Part shown: piece after piece, positions 4,656-15,289 of the stretch
How the letters are laid out: the number at the start of each line of letters is the position of its first letter
Numbering within the stretch: the first letter of the stretch is position 1
Assembly: GCA_015061545.1 (NCBI GenBank)
Contig: SUWJ01000008.1
Location: 1 to 64,000 of the forward strand
Length of the DNA: 64,000 bases
DNA from: Lentisphaerota bacterium
Lineage (GTDB): Bacteria > Verrucomicrobiota > Lentisphaeria > Victivallales > Victivallaceae
Direction of reading: 5' to 3'
The notes under the pieces: generated by a model
Databases searched by the model: none
What the model saw: only the letters and a program-made list of their open reading frames with translations
Told to the model about the DNA's origin: nothing
Program-made: the position numbers and the translations under genes

Positions 4656-5510
4656 GTGAAAAATCTGCTTATTTTTATGCTCATCGGGGCACTCTACGGT
4701 TTGGTGTTTGCTCCCGTTTACGCTGTAGAGGCAGTCTGCACGGCTTATCCGCTGAAACTAATTACAACTGCTTTAACCGAAGGCGCAGGTAATGTAAAAG
4801 TTACTCACCTGCAGGCTCATGCTCACGGCTGCGCCCACGAATACACGCCATCGGCAGCGGATTTGAAAAAAATCCAGAACGGTAATATTATATTGATTGC
4901 CAACGGCGTGGGACTGGATGATCATATCGTAAAGCAGGCAAAGCAACTTAATCCCAAGCTGAAAATCATTTATGCCAATGCGGCAGATAAATCCCCTGCC
5001 CCCGTTGACGCCCATACCTTTGCCAGCCCGGACACGGCAGAGATCATGGCGAAAAATATCACCGCAGGGCTGATTGCTGCCGACTCAGCTAATCAGCAGC
5101 TTTATGCAGCTAATCAGCAGAAATTCTGCGGCAAGATGCAAGAGCTTACCCGCCGGCTGCAAGCACTCAGCAGCAATCAAACGGTATTCATTCACTATCC
5201 GGTTTATAAAAATCTCTGTACATTGCTGAAATGGCAAGTATTGACTTTGAAACAGGAAAAATCCGAGCTGCTCCCCCCCGGCAGACTTATTGAGCTGGTA
5301 AAACAAGGCAAAAAATCCCGTCCTGCTGCCCGATTGATCTTGTGTGATTCAACTGCCGATCCCGCAGTTCAGCAGCTGGCAAAAGCAGCCCAAGCGACGC
5401 TTCTGCAAATAGATCCGCTGCTTCACGGGGAGGACGATGCTCCCGCGGATCGCTTTATCGAAACTATGACCCGCAATGTTGAACAAATCAAAAAAGCGCT
5501 GAAAAAATGA
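4656..5510 (+). CDS. znuA: Metal ABC transporter substrate-binding protein (ZnuA/TroA family)
   Basis: 284 aa periplasmic binding protein, starting at GTG. A hydrophobic signal peptide covers residues 1-23. Candidate metal ligands appear in the usual order: a His in CAHEYTPS, a His in DAHTFASP (family HxxxSP), a His in FIHYPVY and a C-terminal acidic residue in LLQIDPLLHGEDD. The long His-rich acidic loop of E. coli ZnuA is reduced to HLQAHAHGCAHE. It overlaps the ATPase gene by 4 nt (ATGA). Zinc is the most likely substrate, with manganese possible. Confidence 0.85.
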   Translation: MKNLLIFMLIGALYGLVFAPVYAVEAVCTAYPLKLITTALTEGAGNVKVTHLQAHAHGCAHEYTPSAADLKKIQNGNIILIANGVGLDDHIVKQAKQLNPKLKIIYANAADKSPAPVDAHTFASPDTAEIMAKNITAGLIAADSANQQLYAANQQKFCGKMQELTRRLQALSSNQTVFIHYPVYKNLCTLLKWQVLTLKQEKSELLPPGRLIELVKQGKKSRPAARLILCDSTADPAVQQLAKAAQATLLQIDPLLHGEDDAPADRFIETMTRNVEQIKKALKK

Positions 5511-6310
5511 GTCATAATTTACATAAATGCACCTGCCCCAGACATACGGCAATAAAGATTGACAATCTATCTGTAACGCTCAACAGCGTCAAAATCTTGC
5601 GCAATATTACCGCAGCGGTTCCACGCGGAGTCTGTACGGCAATCGTGGGACCTAACGGTGCAGGAAAAAGTACGCTGGTAAAAGCGATCCTGAACGAAAT
5701 AAGCTACAGCGGAACCATCTCCTTCGGGCAGGATGACGGCAGTTTTGGTTCGCATCCGCCGCGCTGGGGATATGTGCCGCAAAAGTTGAATTTTGATCGT
5801 GCCATGCCCATAACCGCGCTGGAGTTTATGATTGCCAGTCAGAGCCGACGGCCGCTTTTTCTGGGCAGCAGCAGAAAATTGCAGGATAAATGCCTTGCGC
5901 TGCTGCACGAAGTGGAGGCTCCCCATACTGCCAATCGGCAGCTGGGCAAGCTCTCCGGCGGCGAATTACAGCGCATACTGCTTGCCACCGCCATCTTGCA
6001 GGAGCCGCAAATACTGGTGCTGGACGAAGTGGCTTCCGGGGTGGATTTTCAGGGCGAAAAACTCTGTTGCGGCTTGCTGGAAAAATTCCGCAGAGAGCGG
6101 AAGTTCACCCAGTTGATGATAAGCCACGATCTGGCTACTGTTGCCGCCCACGCCGCCCATGTGATTTGTCTGAATCACAGTCTGGTCGCAGCAGGACATC
6201 CTGCAGAAGTTTTGACCGAAGAAAATCTGCGTGCGGCATTCGGTATGCACGCCCGCACACCGATCATCGCCGCCCACAAGGAGATTTGCATATGTTCGGA
6301 ACAGGATTGA
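5507..6310 (+). CDS. znuC: Metal ABC transporter ATP-binding protein (ZnuC-like)
   Basis: 267 aa cytoplasmic ATPase that energises the metal importer. Walker A is GPNGAGKST (about residues 48-56), the signature is LSGGELQR, Walker B is ILVLDEV, and the switch His is in ISHDLATV. The Q-loop is in WGYVPQK. There is an extra N-terminal CTCPRH segment and a short C-terminal CICSEQD tail, both Cys-containing and possibly metal binding. It overlaps znuA by 4 nt and the permease by 19 nt, so the three are translationally coupled. Confidence 0.9.
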   Translation: MSHNLHKCTCPRHTAIKIDNLSVTLNSVKILRNITAAVPRGVCTAIVGPNGAGKSTLVKAILNEISYSGTISFGQDDGSFGSHPPRWGYVPQKLNFDRAMPITALEFMIASQSRRPLFLGSSRKLQDKCLALLHEVEAPHTANRQLGKLSGGELQRILLATAILQEPQILVLDEVASGVDFQGEKLCCGLLEKFRRERKFTQLMISHDLATVAAHAAHVICLNHSLVAAGHPAEVLTEENLRAAFGMHARTPIIAAHKEICICSEQD

Positions 6311-7170
6311 TCGAAAAGATATACAGCTTGTTCAGCTGTATTCCGCTGGAAGTGTTGCAATACAGTTTTATACAAAGCGCGCTGCTGGCAGTTCTGATTG
6401 CCGCCCTGCTGACAGCGGTTGCCGGAATCCAGATCATCAACTACCGCATGGCTTTTTTTGCCGATACTATTGCCCACAGCGCTTTTGCCGGAGCTGCGCT
6501 GGGTATATTCCTGCTGGGCAGCGCAGGGCCAATGTGGTTCATGCCCCTGCTGGCAATGTTGATTGCTCTGGGCGTGATGAAACTTAAACGCAGCAGCAAT
6601 CTCTCCGGCGACAGCGCAATCGGAGTATTTTTTGCCATAACAGCCGCGGGGGGACTGCTGATGGTAAGTAAACTGCCCAATGCGGCCTTGCTTGCTCAAA
6701 ACTTTCTTTTCGGCGATATTCTGACCATAAGTGCAAGGGATATACTAATGTTGATATTATTGGCAGCAGCTTATATTGTATTTCTGTTTTTTGCCAATAA
6801 TGCCTTGCAAATCATGGCGATCGACGAAAATCTTGCCCGGGCACATCGGGTGCCGACTTGTTTCTACAGTTATTTGCACATTGCGCTGCTGGCGCTGATC
6901 GTGATTTTTTCGGTGCGTACCATCGGTGTATTGCTGGCGGGAGCAATGCTGATCGTACCGGCGGCGGCAGCAAGAAGCATTGCCCGCAGCGCAAAAGCTG
7001 TTTTCTACTACGCAATAGTGTTCGGAACTATTTCAGGAGTAAGCGGACTTTTGATTTCAGCGCAGGAATGGGCCAATACTGCCGCCGGTGCAACCATCGT
7101 TATTGTCAACTGCATTCTCTTTTTAATTTGCCAGCTGATAAGGTCTTTGCAGAAAGCTCTGATCCAATAA
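6292..7170 (+). CDS. znuB: Metal ABC transporter permease (ZnuB-like)
   Basis: 292 aa with about eight hydrophobic segments, ABC-3 family. The ATG at 6292 is chosen because AAGGAG lies 8 nt before it. The frame stays open further upstream only because it overlaps the ATPase gene. Family patterns include YRMAFFADTIAHSAFAGAALG near the N terminus, GDILTIS in the middle and RTIGVLLAGAMLIVPAA towards the C terminus. It completes a standard ABC metal importer with the two preceding genes. Confidence 0.92.
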   Translation: MFGTGLIEKIYSLFSCIPLEVLQYSFIQSALLAVLIAALLTAVAGIQIINYRMAFFADTIAHSAFAGAALGIFLLGSAGPMWFMPLLAMLIALGVMKLKRSSNLSGDSAIGVFFAITAAGGLLMVSKLPNAALLAQNFLFGDILTISARDILMLILLAAAYIVFLFFANNALQIMAIDENLARAHRVPTCFYSYLHIALLALIVIFSVRTIGVLLAGAMLIVPAAAARSIARSAKAVFYYAIVFGTISGVSGLLISAQEWANTAAGATIVIVNCILFLICQLIRSLQKALIQ

Positions 7171-7239: not shown

Positions 7240-7740
7240 TCAGAAGTTGCACACAACCATTTCCGGATCATTCAAGTGGCGCTTTTTGACCACTTCCAGA
7301 TACTTTTGTGCATCTTCCAAATGTTTAAAAGCCTTCAGTATGCAGCGGGGAATATCTTTGCGCACCAGATCGTAAACGCAATAATATCCCGCCGCAGACA
7401 TTACCGGCAGCACCCAGCCGGGGCAATGCATACAATATATATCGCACACGCCTGCATCGTTATCCAGCACCTTGCCCAGACTGGGGCATCCGTGCATATA
7501 AAAAGTGTAAGATTTGCCATCTTCAAGTATAGCATCGGCATCGCAGTTTTCTTCAAAGATGATATGATCCCAATATTCCTTCATCCCCGTCAGCCCTTTT
7601 TCCTGAAAAAGTTTCAGGCAATGGGTCTTCTGGTGTTCGGCAATGGTGGAGTAATATTCATCAACGGCGGCCTGACCGCGCTTTTGAAGATATTTGAATA
7701 CTTCGCTGTAGAACTTGACAAAATGATCGCTCGGTATCAT
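7240..7740 (-). CDS. Cys-rich protein, third of a three-gene cluster (possible ATC-hydrolase-like family)
   Basis: 166 aa, soluble, start ATG preceded by AAGGAG. It is clearly paralogous to the protein at 8290-8811: both begin IPSDHFV, share THCLK, EENCD, GCPSLxKVxDNDAG, CxHCPGWVLP and a GYYxVYDL helix. Six or more conserved Cys and several His suggest metal or thiol chemistry. The layout is reminiscent of the L-2-amino-thiazoline-4-carboxylate hydrolase-like family, but I cannot confirm this by eye. It is the last gene of a minus-strand operon and lies 12 nt after the preceding gene. Confidence 0.5.
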   Translation of the reverse strand: MIPSDHFVKFYSEVFKYLQKRGQAAVDEYYSTIAEHQKTHCLKLFQEKGLTGMKEYWDHIIFEENCDADAILEDGKSYTFYMHGCPSLGKVLDNDAGVCDIYCMHCPGWVLPVMSAAGYYCVYDLVRKDIPRCILKAFKHLEDAQKYLEVVKKRHLNDPEMVVCNF

Positions 7741-7752
7741 GGAAAAACTCCT

Positions 7753-8202
7753 TTATTTGAACCGCAAAGTCTGACGGCAGCCTTTTTCCTGATGTTCGAC
7801 AACTATTTCAAACGGAGAACCTTCGCACCAGACACTATTCATCTTCTCAGTAGCGTGGCAGATCAGCGGACGGTCGTCGATCTTTTCTTTGGCAAGCTGC
7901 CGCAGCGCAGGACATTCGCGCAATTCCAGAACCGCGGTTCCGTCGGGATTTTCCGTCAACGTAAAGTCACATTTTTCCCGCTCCAGATAGTAGCGCCAAT
8001 GGCAGATAAGTTCGGAACTGTCGCCCCGCTGCAGCCGCTCGTAAATAGATTTATAAACCTTCTCGGCGGTATTGGTCAAAACTTCGTCAACAGCTTCCAT
8101 ACCAAAGTGATCCAGCAGATATTTCAAGCCAACATAGGTACTGCCGTGAAAATCCAAATGCACCTCGCCGGTGGAACAATAACGCATTTCTTCAGGCTTC
8201 AT
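7753..8202 (-). CDS. Conserved hypothetical protein, middle gene of the three-gene Cys-rich cluster
   Basis: 149 aa with the start at MKPEEM, chosen because GAGGAAGG lies 7 nt upstream. The longer frame to 8235 lacks a ribosome binding site. It has a helical first half (YVGLKYLLDHFGMEAVDEVL) and a second half with RECPALRQL, a later Cys-His (ICHATEKM) and another Cys, in the same order as the GCPSL...CxHC block of its neighbours. It may therefore be a distant member of the same fold lacking several of their Cys. Function unknown. Confidence 0.45.
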   Translation of the reverse strand: MKPEEMRYCSTGEVHLDFHGSTYVGLKYLLDHFGMEAVDEVLTNTAEKVYKSIYERLQRGDSSELICHWRYYLEREKCDFTLTENPDGTAVLELRECPALRQLAKEKIDDRPLICHATEKMNSVWCEGSPFEIVVEHQEKGCRQTLRFK

Positions 8203-8289
8203 GCTAAAACCTTCCTCTTTTGATATTACAAACAACTTTCAAGTTTTTTATTGTCAAAACCTGAAAATATATCCTCTGAAAACGCTTTT

Positions 8290-8811
8290 TCAATCTTTTT
8301 CCGGAAAATTCCATTTTACCAGCGTCCGGTCGCCTTTATGCCGTTTCAATACCAGTTTGAGCTGAGCACGGGCATCTTCAATATGCTCGCAGATTGTCGT
8401 CTGACAACGGGGCATATCCAAACTGATGAGATCATAGACATAGTAATAACCGACTTTGCTCATCAACGGCAAAACCCAGCCGGGACAGTGATAGCAATAG
8501 AGCGGACAACTCCCCGCATCGTTATCCTGAACTTTGGCCAGACTCGGACAACCGCTCATAAAACTTTTGAGCACCTTGCCGTACTGACCGTCTTCAATAA
8601 ATTTGTCGGAATCACAGTTTTCCTCTTTTTTGATCATCATCCAGTAGTCATACATTCCCTGCAGACCACCTTCGCTGAATTGCTTCAGACAATGAGTCTC
8701 CTGATGGCGGCTGATTTCGAGGAAATAATCTTCCAGATGTTCGTGCCCTTTATCTTCCAGATACTTGAAAATTTCGTTGTAAAAACGGACAAAGTGATCG
8801 CTGGGAATCAT
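8290..8811 (-). CDS. Cys-rich protein, first of the three-gene cluster (paralogue of 7240-7740)
   Basis: 173 aa. The ATG at 8811 is preferred over the GTG two codons earlier because AAGGAA is 8 nt away and the paralogue starts at the same residue (MIPSDHFV). It has the conserved blocks THCLK, EENCDSD, SGCPSLAKVQDNDAG, CYHCPGWVLPLM and YYVYDL. It lies downstream of the lyase gene at 8884-9810, with an 11-bp inverted repeat between them, so the four genes may be co-transcribed. Function unknown; a hydrolase or metal-dependent enzyme is plausible. Confidence 0.5.
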   Translation of the reverse strand: MIPSDHFVRFYNEIFKYLEDKGHEHLEDYFLEISRHQETHCLKQFSEGGLQGMYDYWMMIKKEENCDSDKFIEDGQYGKVLKSFMSGCPSLAKVQDNDAGSCPLYCYHCPGWVLPLMSKVGYYYVYDLISLDMPRCQTTICEHIEDARAQLKLVLKRHKGDRTLVKWNFPEKD

Positions 8812-8883: not shown

Positions 8884-9810
8884 TCACTTGAGCAGCCACG
8901 CTTTTTCAGCGCGGATGACTTCATCAATATCTTTGGAACATTGTTCCGAAAGCTGATAATTCAAATAAGTCTTGGCGGTGTTGAACACGCCCAGCCGCAC
9001 CATTATCTCTTTCTGCCCTGCCATCCAGCACTCGATGGACTTGCCGCCGAAGATCTTGAACATAACTTCCGCCAGATGACTCTGGATTGCCTGAGTTTCG
9101 TCAAACTTGCCTTCGGCTGCCAGTCGGCACATTTCTGCAGCGTAAGCACCGTTAAAGCAGCCGCCGCCGAACAATACGCCGTCGTACCCGGCTTTAAGAT
9201 AGGTCACACAGTCAAACTCATCGCCGCACAGCACCGCCAATTCACCGTTACGGCGCTGTTTGGCTGCCATGATCGCCTGAGTAAATTCCGTCATGCTGGC
9301 GGAATCTTTACACAATATCACTTTGGGATTATCCAGCAAACGCCCCAGCACTTCGGGATCAACATAGACGCTGGAAAACTTGCCGCGATTGTAGATACCC
9401 ACCGGGATCTGACTGGCTTCGATGACCTGAGTATAGAGATCGTAAATAAAATCGCCTTTGGCGGCGTTGAGCTGGAAAAACGGCGGGGCAATTACCGCTA
9501 TATCAATAATATCCTGATAGCGCTGCAAATTTTCGATCATCCGTTCTGCCGAGTTATCAGTTATCTGCATCGCCACGGGGATCCGTCCGTCCACATAACG
9601 CACCGTCAATTCCGCCAGACGCATCCGTTCGGCATCGGGCAGAAACGGGCCTTCCCCGGCGGTTCCCGCCAGAAACAACCCCTTGATGCCCAGTTTGATC
9701 TGGTGTTCAACCAGCTTGGCAAGCGCATCACGATCCACCTTGCCATCCAGCGTCAGCGGAGTAGACATTGCCGACCAGGCACCTTTGAATGAATCCATCG
9801 AAAATTTCAT
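8884..9810 (-). CDS. Dihydrodipicolinate synthase / N-acetylneuraminate lyase family protein
   Basis: 308 aa class I aldolase-type TIM barrel. The Schiff-base Lys is K168 (ILCKDSA), the catalytic Tyr is Y140 (GIYNRGKF), and the GTTGE substrate-carboxylate loop appears as GTAGE at residues 49-53. The YNxP motif of true DapA and NanA is changed to YNRG, so a sugar-acid or other 2-oxo acid aldolase is more likely than lysine biosynthesis. The ATG at 9810 has AAGGA 8 nt before it. The frame extends nine codons further upstream without a site. It is divergent from a GntR regulator, which suggests an inducible catabolic role. Confidence 0.85.
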   Translation of the reverse strand: MKFSMDSFKGAWSAMSTPLTLDGKVDRDALAKLVEHQIKLGIKGLFLAGTAGEGPFLPDAERMRLAELTVRYVDGRIPVAMQITDNSAERMIENLQRYQDIIDIAVIAPPFFQLNAAKGDFIYDLYTQVIEASQIPVGIYNRGKFSSVYVDPEVLGRLLDNPKVILCKDSASMTEFTQAIMAAKQRRNGELAVLCGDEFDCVTYLKAGYDGVLFGGGCFNGAYAAEMCRLAAEGKFDETQAIQSHLAEVMFKIFGGKSIECWMAGQKEIMVRLGVFNTAKTYLNYQLSEQCSKDIDEVIRAEKAWLLK

Positions 9811-9843
9811 CTTGATATTCCTTTCCATACGAAACAAGGTTAT

Positions 9844-9940: not shown

Positions 9941-10024
9941 TAAAAACGGATAAGGCGCATATTTAGAATAAAAAAAATATCGAATAAGATTTGAATTTTT
10001 CTATGAAACGTGCAATATTATCTT

Positions 10025-10669
10025 ATGCAGAAAAATAAACGTAAAACTTTGACCGATCAAGTGGAACAGCGGATATACGAACATATCCGCGAGCATGGTT
10101 ACGCTTTTGGCGACCTGCTGCCCAAAGAAGAGGAGTTTGCCGCCGAACTTTCGGTGTCGCGCACCATCACGCGGGAGGCTTTGAGCCGCTTGAAAGCGGC
10201 AGGAATCATCGAAAGCCGCCGCAGACGCGGAATGATCCTGAAAAAGCCCGACCTTTTTGCGGGGCTTGATAAACTTATCCATTTTAATATTCTGGACGAA
10301 ACCGCCCGCAAAGAGTTTGCTGAACTGCGGCTGGTCATCGAAATCGGCTTATCGGATTTGATCTATATGCACAAAACGCCGGAAGCCCTTGACGAGCTGG
10401 AGAAAATCGCCCGCCGTTTTATCGACAGCAAAGAACACGGCAAGATCGAGCAGGAGTTTCACCGCCGATTGATGGCGATGAGCCAGAATCGGCTGATCGA
10501 CCGCTTCCAACTGCTGTTGGATTCAGTTTTTGTTTCCGCAAAAGAGTTGTCCGAAGAAGTGATGAGTCAGGCCTACGGCGACCATATGGAAATCGTTGAA
10601 GCGTTGCGCAGCGGCACGTTGGCGGAGTGGCGCGAGGTAGCCCACCAGCATTTTACCAATTATTTCTGA
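10025..10669 (+). CDS. GntR-family transcriptional regulator (FadR/FCD type)
   Basis: 214 aa from the ATG at 10025; a GTG at 10010 would add five residues. Neither has a strong ribosome binding site. The N-terminal winged helix-turn-helix is clear (QRIYEHIREHGYAFGDLLPKE, then SVSRTITREALSRLKAAGII). The C-terminal helical FCD-like domain contains EFHRRL and DHMEIVEAL with a spaced His that may bind a metal or ligand carboxylate. It is divergent from the NAL/DHDPS-family lyase, so it probably represses that gene and responds to a pathway metabolite. Confidence 0.88.
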   Translation: MQKNKRKTLTDQVEQRIYEHIREHGYAFGDLLPKEEEFAAELSVSRTITREALSRLKAAGIIESRRRRGMILKKPDLFAGLDKLIHFNILDETARKEFAELRLVIEIGLSDLIYMHKTPEALDELEKIARRFIDSKEHGKIEQEFHRRLMAMSQNRLIDRFQLLLDSVFVSAKELSEEVMSQAYGDHMEIVEALRSGTLAEWREVAHQHFTNYF

Positions 10670-14968: not shown

Positions 14969-15289
14969 ATGAACAACGCTTATGAACTTTTTACCGCCGT
15001 ACCCAAACAGCACAACTGCGCGCAGGCGGTCGCCGATGGATTCGGTGACCACGCGCTGTCGGCAGCTATGAAAGTTTGCGGCGGCGGCAACGCCCCTTAC
15101 GGTCGCTGCGGAGCATTGCATGCAGCATTGCTACTGACCGATCAAGCCTGCCATGAAGAACTTATCCGTGAATTTACCACGGCAGCAAAATCCGAAAAAT
15201 GCAAAGAGATCAAAGGCTCTGCCGAGCCCTTCCCCTGTGCTGAATGTGTGCGTCTGGCGGCGGAACTGGTAGAAAAATTCCGTTCGTAA
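14969..15289 (+). CDS. C_GCAxxG_C_C family redox protein
   Basis: 106 aa. The Cys pattern matches this family: HNCAQAV near the N terminus, VCGGGNAPYGRCGALHAA in the middle and EKCKEI, then PFPCAECV at the end. Members are thought to bind a metal cluster or act in redox, mostly in anaerobes, but no specific reaction is established. It starts at an ATG about 7 nt after a GAGGAGC site and lies 27 nt downstream of uup, so it is probably co-transcribed with it. Confidence 0.75.
   Translation: MNNAYELFTAVPKQHNCAQAVADGFGDHALSAAMKVCGGGNAPYGRCGALHAALLLTDQACHEELIREFTTAAKSEKCKEIKGSAEPFPCAECVRLAAELVEKFRS

Follow-up and report, generated by a model that had tools for sequence, protein, structure and literature searches.

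The window, as we call the whole 64,000-nucleotide stretch of DNA that was analysed, holds three small open reading frames on the minus strand within 7240-8811, where a first-pass annotation had placed a cluster of three small Cys-rich proteins. All three are present there and are called P1, P2 and P3 here (Table 1). They share their strand with a lyase gene, whose true start probably lies inside the ORF listed, and the gaps along the putative operon are 72 bp between the lyase and P3, 87 bp between P3 and the ATG of P2, and 12 bp between P2 and P1. From its position, the divergent GntR/FCD-type gene likely encodes the regulator of the lyase-P3-P2-P1 unit; related regulators of the same cluster are found on five distinct contigs including the window (six loci, two of them on one contig). 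Genes were called from ORF length and composition rather than by a trained gene finder.

Table 1. Positions of features in the window, in the genome it comes from (G000) and in related loci
Feature	Source	Positions	Strand	Remarks
ZnuA / ABC ATPase / ABC-3 permease cluster	window	4656-7170	plus	convergent to the P1-P3/lyase unit
P1	window	7240-7740	minus	putative P1-type subunit gene, 166 aa; ORF and translation
P2	window	7753-8202 (from ATG)	minus	putative P2-type subunit gene, 149 aa; TTG start at 8235 possible
P3	window	8290-8811	minus	second putative P1-type subunit gene, 173 aa, P1 paralogue
DHDPS/NAL-superfamily lyase gene	window	8884-9837	minus	first gene of putative operon; PF00701 E 6.7e-39
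GntR/FCD-type regulator	window	10010-10669	plus	divergent; PF00392 E 4.9e-17, PF07729 E 2e-12
Small protein	window	14969-15286	plus	C_GCAxxG_C_C match below threshold, E 0.00048, 20.6/27 bits
PF00701 gene	G000, C45	80292-81143		E 1.5e-93
AGE-type epimerase	G000, C41	14370-15401
BNR-domain match	G000, C19	8704-9066
P1-YhcH fusion	G288, L071	6487-7452	minus
P1-YhcH fusion	G288, L072	5970-6935	plus	no P2 gene found beside it
P1-YhcH fusion	G288, L126	1808-2764	plus
NeuB with cytidylyltransferase-cluster genes (nonulosonate biosynthesis)	L077	10890-13327		NeuB about 4 kb from the pair
NeuB with cytidylyltransferase-cluster genes (nonulosonate biosynthesis)	L080	479-3819		NeuB 12 bp downstream of P1

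P1 and P3 are 55.6% identical (E 8e-70) and have the GCPSL, DNDAG and CxHCPGWVLP blocks in common, in agreement with their earlier description as paralogues. The middle gene had been put forward as a possible divergent member. Compared pairwise, P2 and P1 alone give E 0.001 at 21% identity, and comparison of the smaller alignments A1 and A2 was unconvincing (6.4% probability, E 0.0057). The homology is convincing only with the larger alignments A3 and A4, profiles of 40 P2-type and 45 P1-type sequences matching over 145 columns with 98.2% probability and E 6e-14, against E 0.011 or 0.014 in the controls with one profile reversed. Because the family profiles match at this level, P2 is by its profile a true but remote homologue of P1 and P3 and a divergent member of the family, as had been supposed.

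Of 387 genomes from the phylum, 56 yielded P1-type proteins with the P1 profile A1, and 70 loci were mapped from these 56. Loci L005-L010 and L012-L014 lie outside the 56 counted genomes, and L001, L002, L003, L004 and L011 repeat sampled genomes, their rows being left out of the counts. Occurrence outside the phylum was probed by P3 peptide patterns only; in public contigs these found 14 loci, under titles naming Lentisphaerae/Lentisphaeria, Kiritimatiellae, Verrucomicrobia or 'uncultured bacterium', and several of the matches are ruminant gut MAGs. In 59 of the 65 testable loci the gene immediately upstream of P1 is P2; the two overlap in 46 loci, by exactly 4 bp in 37. Six loci depart from this rule (L116, L050, L068, L072, L122 and L125): in L116 P2 adjoins P3 and the contig stops before P1, and in L125 P1 is incomplete, lying at the end of a contig. 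P1 stands without a detected P2 in five of the 65, and two P1-type genes occur in seven of the 70 loci, the window included. This order and overlap suggest that P2 and P1 are translationally coupled, and for the same reason we infer that their products probably form a heteromer.

Searches of Pfam and NCBIfam with P1, P2 and P3 gave no significant match, none being better than E 0.09; for P1 nothing was listed in either library at E up to 10 or in PHROGs at E up to 1, and the PHROGs look-up of all three gave nothing useful. Sequence searches of the PDB with both first profiles returned weak, unrelated matches only (E 0.77 or worse). The first-pass annotation had held that it would be contradicted if the proteins matched a well-known family of set function; such a match was looked for in Pfam and NCBIfam with P1-P3 and their homologues, and none was found. 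The Pfam model matching most members of the pair family is PF14196 (ATC hydrolase), which had been proposed for comparison. It matches 11 of the 40 P2 proteins (best E 0.00095) and 7 of the 45 P1 proteins (best E 0.0077). Membership of this family was rejected on the curated cut-off: P1-P3 of the window have no match to the model, a P2 homologue in genome G018 scores 19.8 bits, below the cut-off of 28.1, and the cut-off was exceeded in 0 of 21 genomes. A remote relation to the family does stand for P2, whose profile aligns with four PF14196 proteins at E 1.1e-4 (reversed control 0.63), C-P, C and C falling in register. With the P1 profile the same four sequences give E 0.13, and the register is not seen. 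The pair resembles ATC hydrolase in length and, for P2, in the C-P ... C ... C register and a weak profile similarity, and differs from it in scoring below the cut-off where bits are given and in being a gene pair with a lyase partner.

PF02830 (V4R) is missing from the Pfam models to which the 40 P2 and 45 P1 proteins show a match at E 1 or better. HH alignment of a V4R profile of five sequences gave E 0.073 with A3 and E 0.29 with A4, and membership of PF02830 was undetected by this alignment. The NCBIfam model MsvR, a transcription factor, matches nine of the 40 P2 proteins (best E 1.8e-5); MsvR is listed as a V4R-domain regulator (PMC3729527). On the strength of predicted structure and of three Cys that are conserved, a published analysis unites V4R, HNOB and ATC hydrolase (PMC5847659). 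AlphaFold2 models of P3 and P2 have a mean pLDDT of 87.4 and 82.5, respectively. The top Foldseek matches of both are TRAPP subunits with probability 1.00 (E 6.7e-3 for P3, 1.5e-3 for P2), and at E 0.001 or better Foldseek gave none for either model. VIA-align placed the P3 model closest to BcsD (8poc_A; Z 8.7, rmsd 3.8 over 130 residues) and the P2 model closest to 2bjn_A (Z 7.9, rmsd 4.3 over 120 residues), moderate scores on a scale where a Z below 8 may mean merely a common arrangement of the chain. The models also resemble the sensor domains of PoxR, MopR and DmpR. The fold of P2 and P3 is thus predicted to belong to the TRAPP/V4R/H-NOX/BcsD group. The pair is like this superfamily in its predicted fold and conserved Cys cluster, and unlike it in having neither a PF02830 match nor a sensor or membrane-traffic context; heteromeric dimers are known in TRAPP (Bet3-Trs31 and Bet3-Trs33 entries). 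From the PF14196, MsvR and fold matches, together with the superfamily link as given in the excerpts of PMC5847659, we therefore take the pair to be a new branch of the V4R-HNOB-ATC hydrolase superfamily, outside PF14196 and PF02830 as modelled. Our literature searches brought up no earlier description of the pair that we recognised.

In all 45 P1-type proteins C88, C106, H108, C109 and C136 are invariant, a set that reads C-P-S ... Y-C-x-H-C ... C. Tyr105, Pro89 and Glu64 are also invariant, and Cys66 (26 of 45) and Cys102 (16 of 45) are variable. The 40 P2-type proteins have invariant Phe18 and Glu76 and keep C97 in 37, C115 in 31, C126 in 27 and C142 in 31. Cys115 and Cys142 are both absent from one P2 clade (L054, L055, L057, L058, L059, L062, L064 and L066), three members of which have lost Cys97 too. 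The strict Cys/His pattern claimed at first for the cluster thus holds for P1 and P3 but not for P2, and the loss of Cys among homologues, which was to have told against the claim, is limited to part of the P2 proteins and leaves the P1 type intact. Should a metal site be retained throughout by one of the subunits, that subunit would therefore be P1. Judged from this conservation, the Cys4-His set of the P1-type subunit probably binds zinc or another transition metal, and the metal-thiolate chemistry proposed at the outset is consistent with the Cys/His pattern of these proteins. That the heteromer does contain the predicted metal site we consider likely.

Linkage to lyase genes was counted in 58 of the 70 loci, those flanked by 1 kb or more of sequence on each side, and the expectation was based on 233 DHDPS-family genes in 227 Mb. 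Of these 58 loci, 30 have a co-oriented DHDPS-family gene no more than 150 bp away (11 of 20 families; 0.009 expected) and 35 have one within 2.5 kb (12 of 20 families; 0.15 expected), and the spacing between lyase and pair is 2-20 bp in many loci. The association with the upstream lyase that the first reading had proposed is thereby supported, and we have strong grounds for linking the pair to a lyase pathway. In three loci, HpcH/HpaI lyases, which we take to be a metal-dependent class of pyruvate aldolases, are found within 2.5 kb, and in 22 of the 58 neither a DHDPS nor an HpcH lyase is found on the same strand within that distance. The further suggestion that the unit is catabolic fits the lyase loci, though NeuB/cytidylyltransferase genes of sialic-acid-type biosynthesis are found near two of the loci.

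The window lyase is a clear PF00701 member of the NAL/DHDPS superfamily, with the Schiff-base Lys and the Tyr in the conserved columns. Among 44 linked lyases, taken within 2.5 kb from all mapped loci and so a different set from the 58, the Schiff-base Lys is present in 43 and the Tyr in 41. Two specific assignments of the window lyase were rejected, DapA (TIGR00674, 112.9 bits against a cut-off of 206.15) and NanA (TIGR00683, 50.9 bits against 382). Its own genome has a much better PF00701 match elsewhere (C45 in Table 1), and its PDB relatives, the best of them at E 1.7e-24, are mostly named DHDPS. By sequence the window lyase is a generic one, as are the lyases of L085 and L066; that of L006 is NAL-like, its best PDB matches being N-acetylneuraminate lyases (E 4.5e-39). 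Other neighbours within 2.5 kb are SDR (11 loci), AKR (7), BNR/sialidase-like (6 loci in 6 families), SGNH (5), SSS symporter (4) and Kelch (3) genes; these families are clusters or profiles built from the loci, with one or a few members of each compared with Pfam. A lyase, an SDR and an AKR recur together with the pair in L066, L076, L078, L079 and L088, with an SGNH hydrolase in L066, L078 and L088, and could possibly make up a sugar-oxidation pathway; KdgK- and Eda-like genes were seen by eye nearby in L079.

Three P1 genes of genome G288 encode a C-terminal DUF386/YhcH domain (E 6.7e-30, 1e-31 and 2e-32, above the cut-off; Table 1). In the fused proteins PF04074 covers only the part after residue 165, and it is not among the models matched by P1-P3 or by members of A3 and A4. 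Genome G172 has YhcH, a pilin-like gene, two lyases, P2 and P1 in this order on one strand, and G175 has YhcH, a GH-like gene, a lyase, P2 and P1 (pilin-like and GH-like being assigned by eye). Across the 70 loci, YhcH occurs within 4 kb on the same strand five times, three of these being the fusions of one genome, against about 0.08 expected. By genome, YhcH is found in 51 of the 56 that have the pair and in 190 of 288 in a sample of the phylum that includes some of these, a co-occurrence that is suggestive only. According to excerpts of Kentache et al. (PMC8141875), more than 99% of Neu5Ac is a closed ring, several free transition metals speed its opening without enzyme, E. coli YhcH contains Zn and opens cyclic Neu5Ac to feed the aldolase NanA, and NanM is the other Neu5Ac anomerase. 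On the same excerpts (PMC8141875), the pair is like YhcH/NanQ (PF04074), a zinc anomerase found in sialic acid operons, in that the latter is a small cytoplasmic metalloprotein encoded with a NAL-type aldolase; it is unlike it in having two subunit types rather than one and in its conserved residues.

The Kelch genes adjoin P1 in three loci, all of family f35; that of L056 matches the NANM model PF24996 with 57.1 against 45 bits and falls below the NCBIfam NanM-type cut-offs. In L080 the NeuB beside P1 scores 473 bits, above the 400 set as cut-off for TIGR03569. A cytidylyltransferase lies 2.6 kb downstream, PseF being its best-scoring model though below cut-off (157.6/205.7 bits); genes of the cytidylyltransferase cluster are in the neighbourhood. 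NeuB linkage is seen in only 2 of 56 genomes (G110 and G346), in G110 at a distance of about 4 kb. None of the 58 well-flanked loci has NeuB within 2.5 kb, L080 itself lying outside the 58 since its upstream flank is too short. The genome of the window has an AGE-type epimerase and a BNR-domain match (Table 1), so sialic-acid-type metabolism may exist there apart from the P1-P3/lyase operon. No lyase was seen by eye beside the epimerase in the C41 stretch, and because of this we make no claim of sialic acid degradation by the window unit.

As we see it, the common denominator of the DHDPS/NAL and HpcH lyases, NeuB, NanM and YhcH is a 2-keto-3-deoxy sugar acid. We propose that P2 and P1/P3, as subunits of two kinds, would make up a single cytoplasmic heteromer of V4R/H-NOX/TRAPP-like fold, in which the Cys4-His set for zinc or another transition metal would sit on the P1 type. 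The heteromer would partner a Schiff-base pyruvate lyase of the DHDPS/NAL superfamily in 2-keto-3-deoxy sugar-acid pathways, and would most likely act on the lyase's own sugar acid, by metal-assisted ring opening or anomerisation of its cyclic form, so that the lyase would receive the open 2-keto form able to make a Schiff base. That the heteromer is tied to lyase pathways is in our judgement very probable. Ring opening or anomerisation is the best-supported step because of the YhcH fusion and the neighbouring genes; as an assignment it is tentative and, taken by itself, doubtful, since the fusion could equally be read as P1 doing a different step, and with YhcH in 51 of the 56 genomes a further opener may be redundant. 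To the explanation as a whole, a metal-site heteromer that opens rings for the lyase in 2-keto-3-deoxy sugar-acid metabolism, we give somewhat less than an even chance.

The pair may instead be a separate pathway enzyme, such as a lactonase, a cyclic-imine or amide hydrolase, or a dehydratase, which would make the 2-keto-3-deoxy acid before the lyase acts and would be comparable to the ATC hydrolases of PF14196, which cleave rings. The breadth of the PF14196 matches and the shared Cys register with the P2 profile argue for this, and in the five loci with lyase, SDR, AKR and pair no dehydratase was seen by eye. The P1 profile reaches just E 0.13 with PF14196, however; several lyase types and NeuB are hard to fit with one fixed upstream reaction, and the YhcH fusion is a pointer to the keto acid in its ring form, not to a reaction further upstream, so that we regard such an enzyme as rather improbable. 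It is less probable again that the pair is a V4R-like ligand or redox sensor, binding a pathway metabolite or sensing thiol state and so regulating the lyase or its expression. The MsvR matches and the resemblance to the PoxR, MopR and DmpR sensor domains are in keeping with a sensor, but no convincing DNA-binding domain was seen (the FadR and AbrB models each matched 2 of the 40 P2 proteins, with E-values of 0.013-0.03, and none is listed for P1), and both the 2-20 bp coupling to the lyase in many loci and the YhcH fusion better fit a role as pathway enzyme.

A non-enzymatic part, in which the pair would serve the lyase as an accessory subunit for structure or metal delivery, would account for the tight coupling of lyase, P2 and P1, and the fold relatives TRAPP and BcsD are subunits of larger assemblies. 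But the lyases that accompany the pair are of different types (DHDPS/NAL and HpcH/HpaI), some loci have none nearby, and the linked lyases nearly all keep their own active-site Lys and Tyr, which makes this the least likely of the alternatives and an improbable one outright. The ring-opening reading, carried to its full extent, would make the pair a third 'openase' partnering aldolases beside NanM and YhcH and unrelated to them, a two-subunit metal-thiolate enzyme of V4R-like fold that would open cyclic 2-keto-3-deoxy sugar acids for pyruvate lyases, would be in wide use across the phylum and is sometimes fused to YhcH; stated in this specific form we think it rather unlikely.

P1, P2 and P3 thus represent an undescribed two-protein family that often adjoins sugar-acid lyase genes in one phylum and may aid substrate handling. 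It is a conserved pair without a specific family model inside sugar-acid operons across the phylum, gut MAGs included, and naming it would complete these operons. The V4R/TRAPP superfamily, which is mostly associated with sensors and membrane-traffic subunits, would gain from it a branch that is so far undescribed and likely enzymatic in role. Naming the pair would further test the expectation, expressed in the excerpts of Kentache et al. (PMC8141875), that further ring openers feeding aldolases are to be found.

Two minor observations concern the surroundings of the unit in the window. The ZnuA/ABC cluster that converges on it is a zinc- or manganese-type uptake system; by eye, such genes also flank the unit in L003 and not in L073. 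The small protein at 14969-15286 matches C_GCAxxG_C_C below threshold (Table 1).
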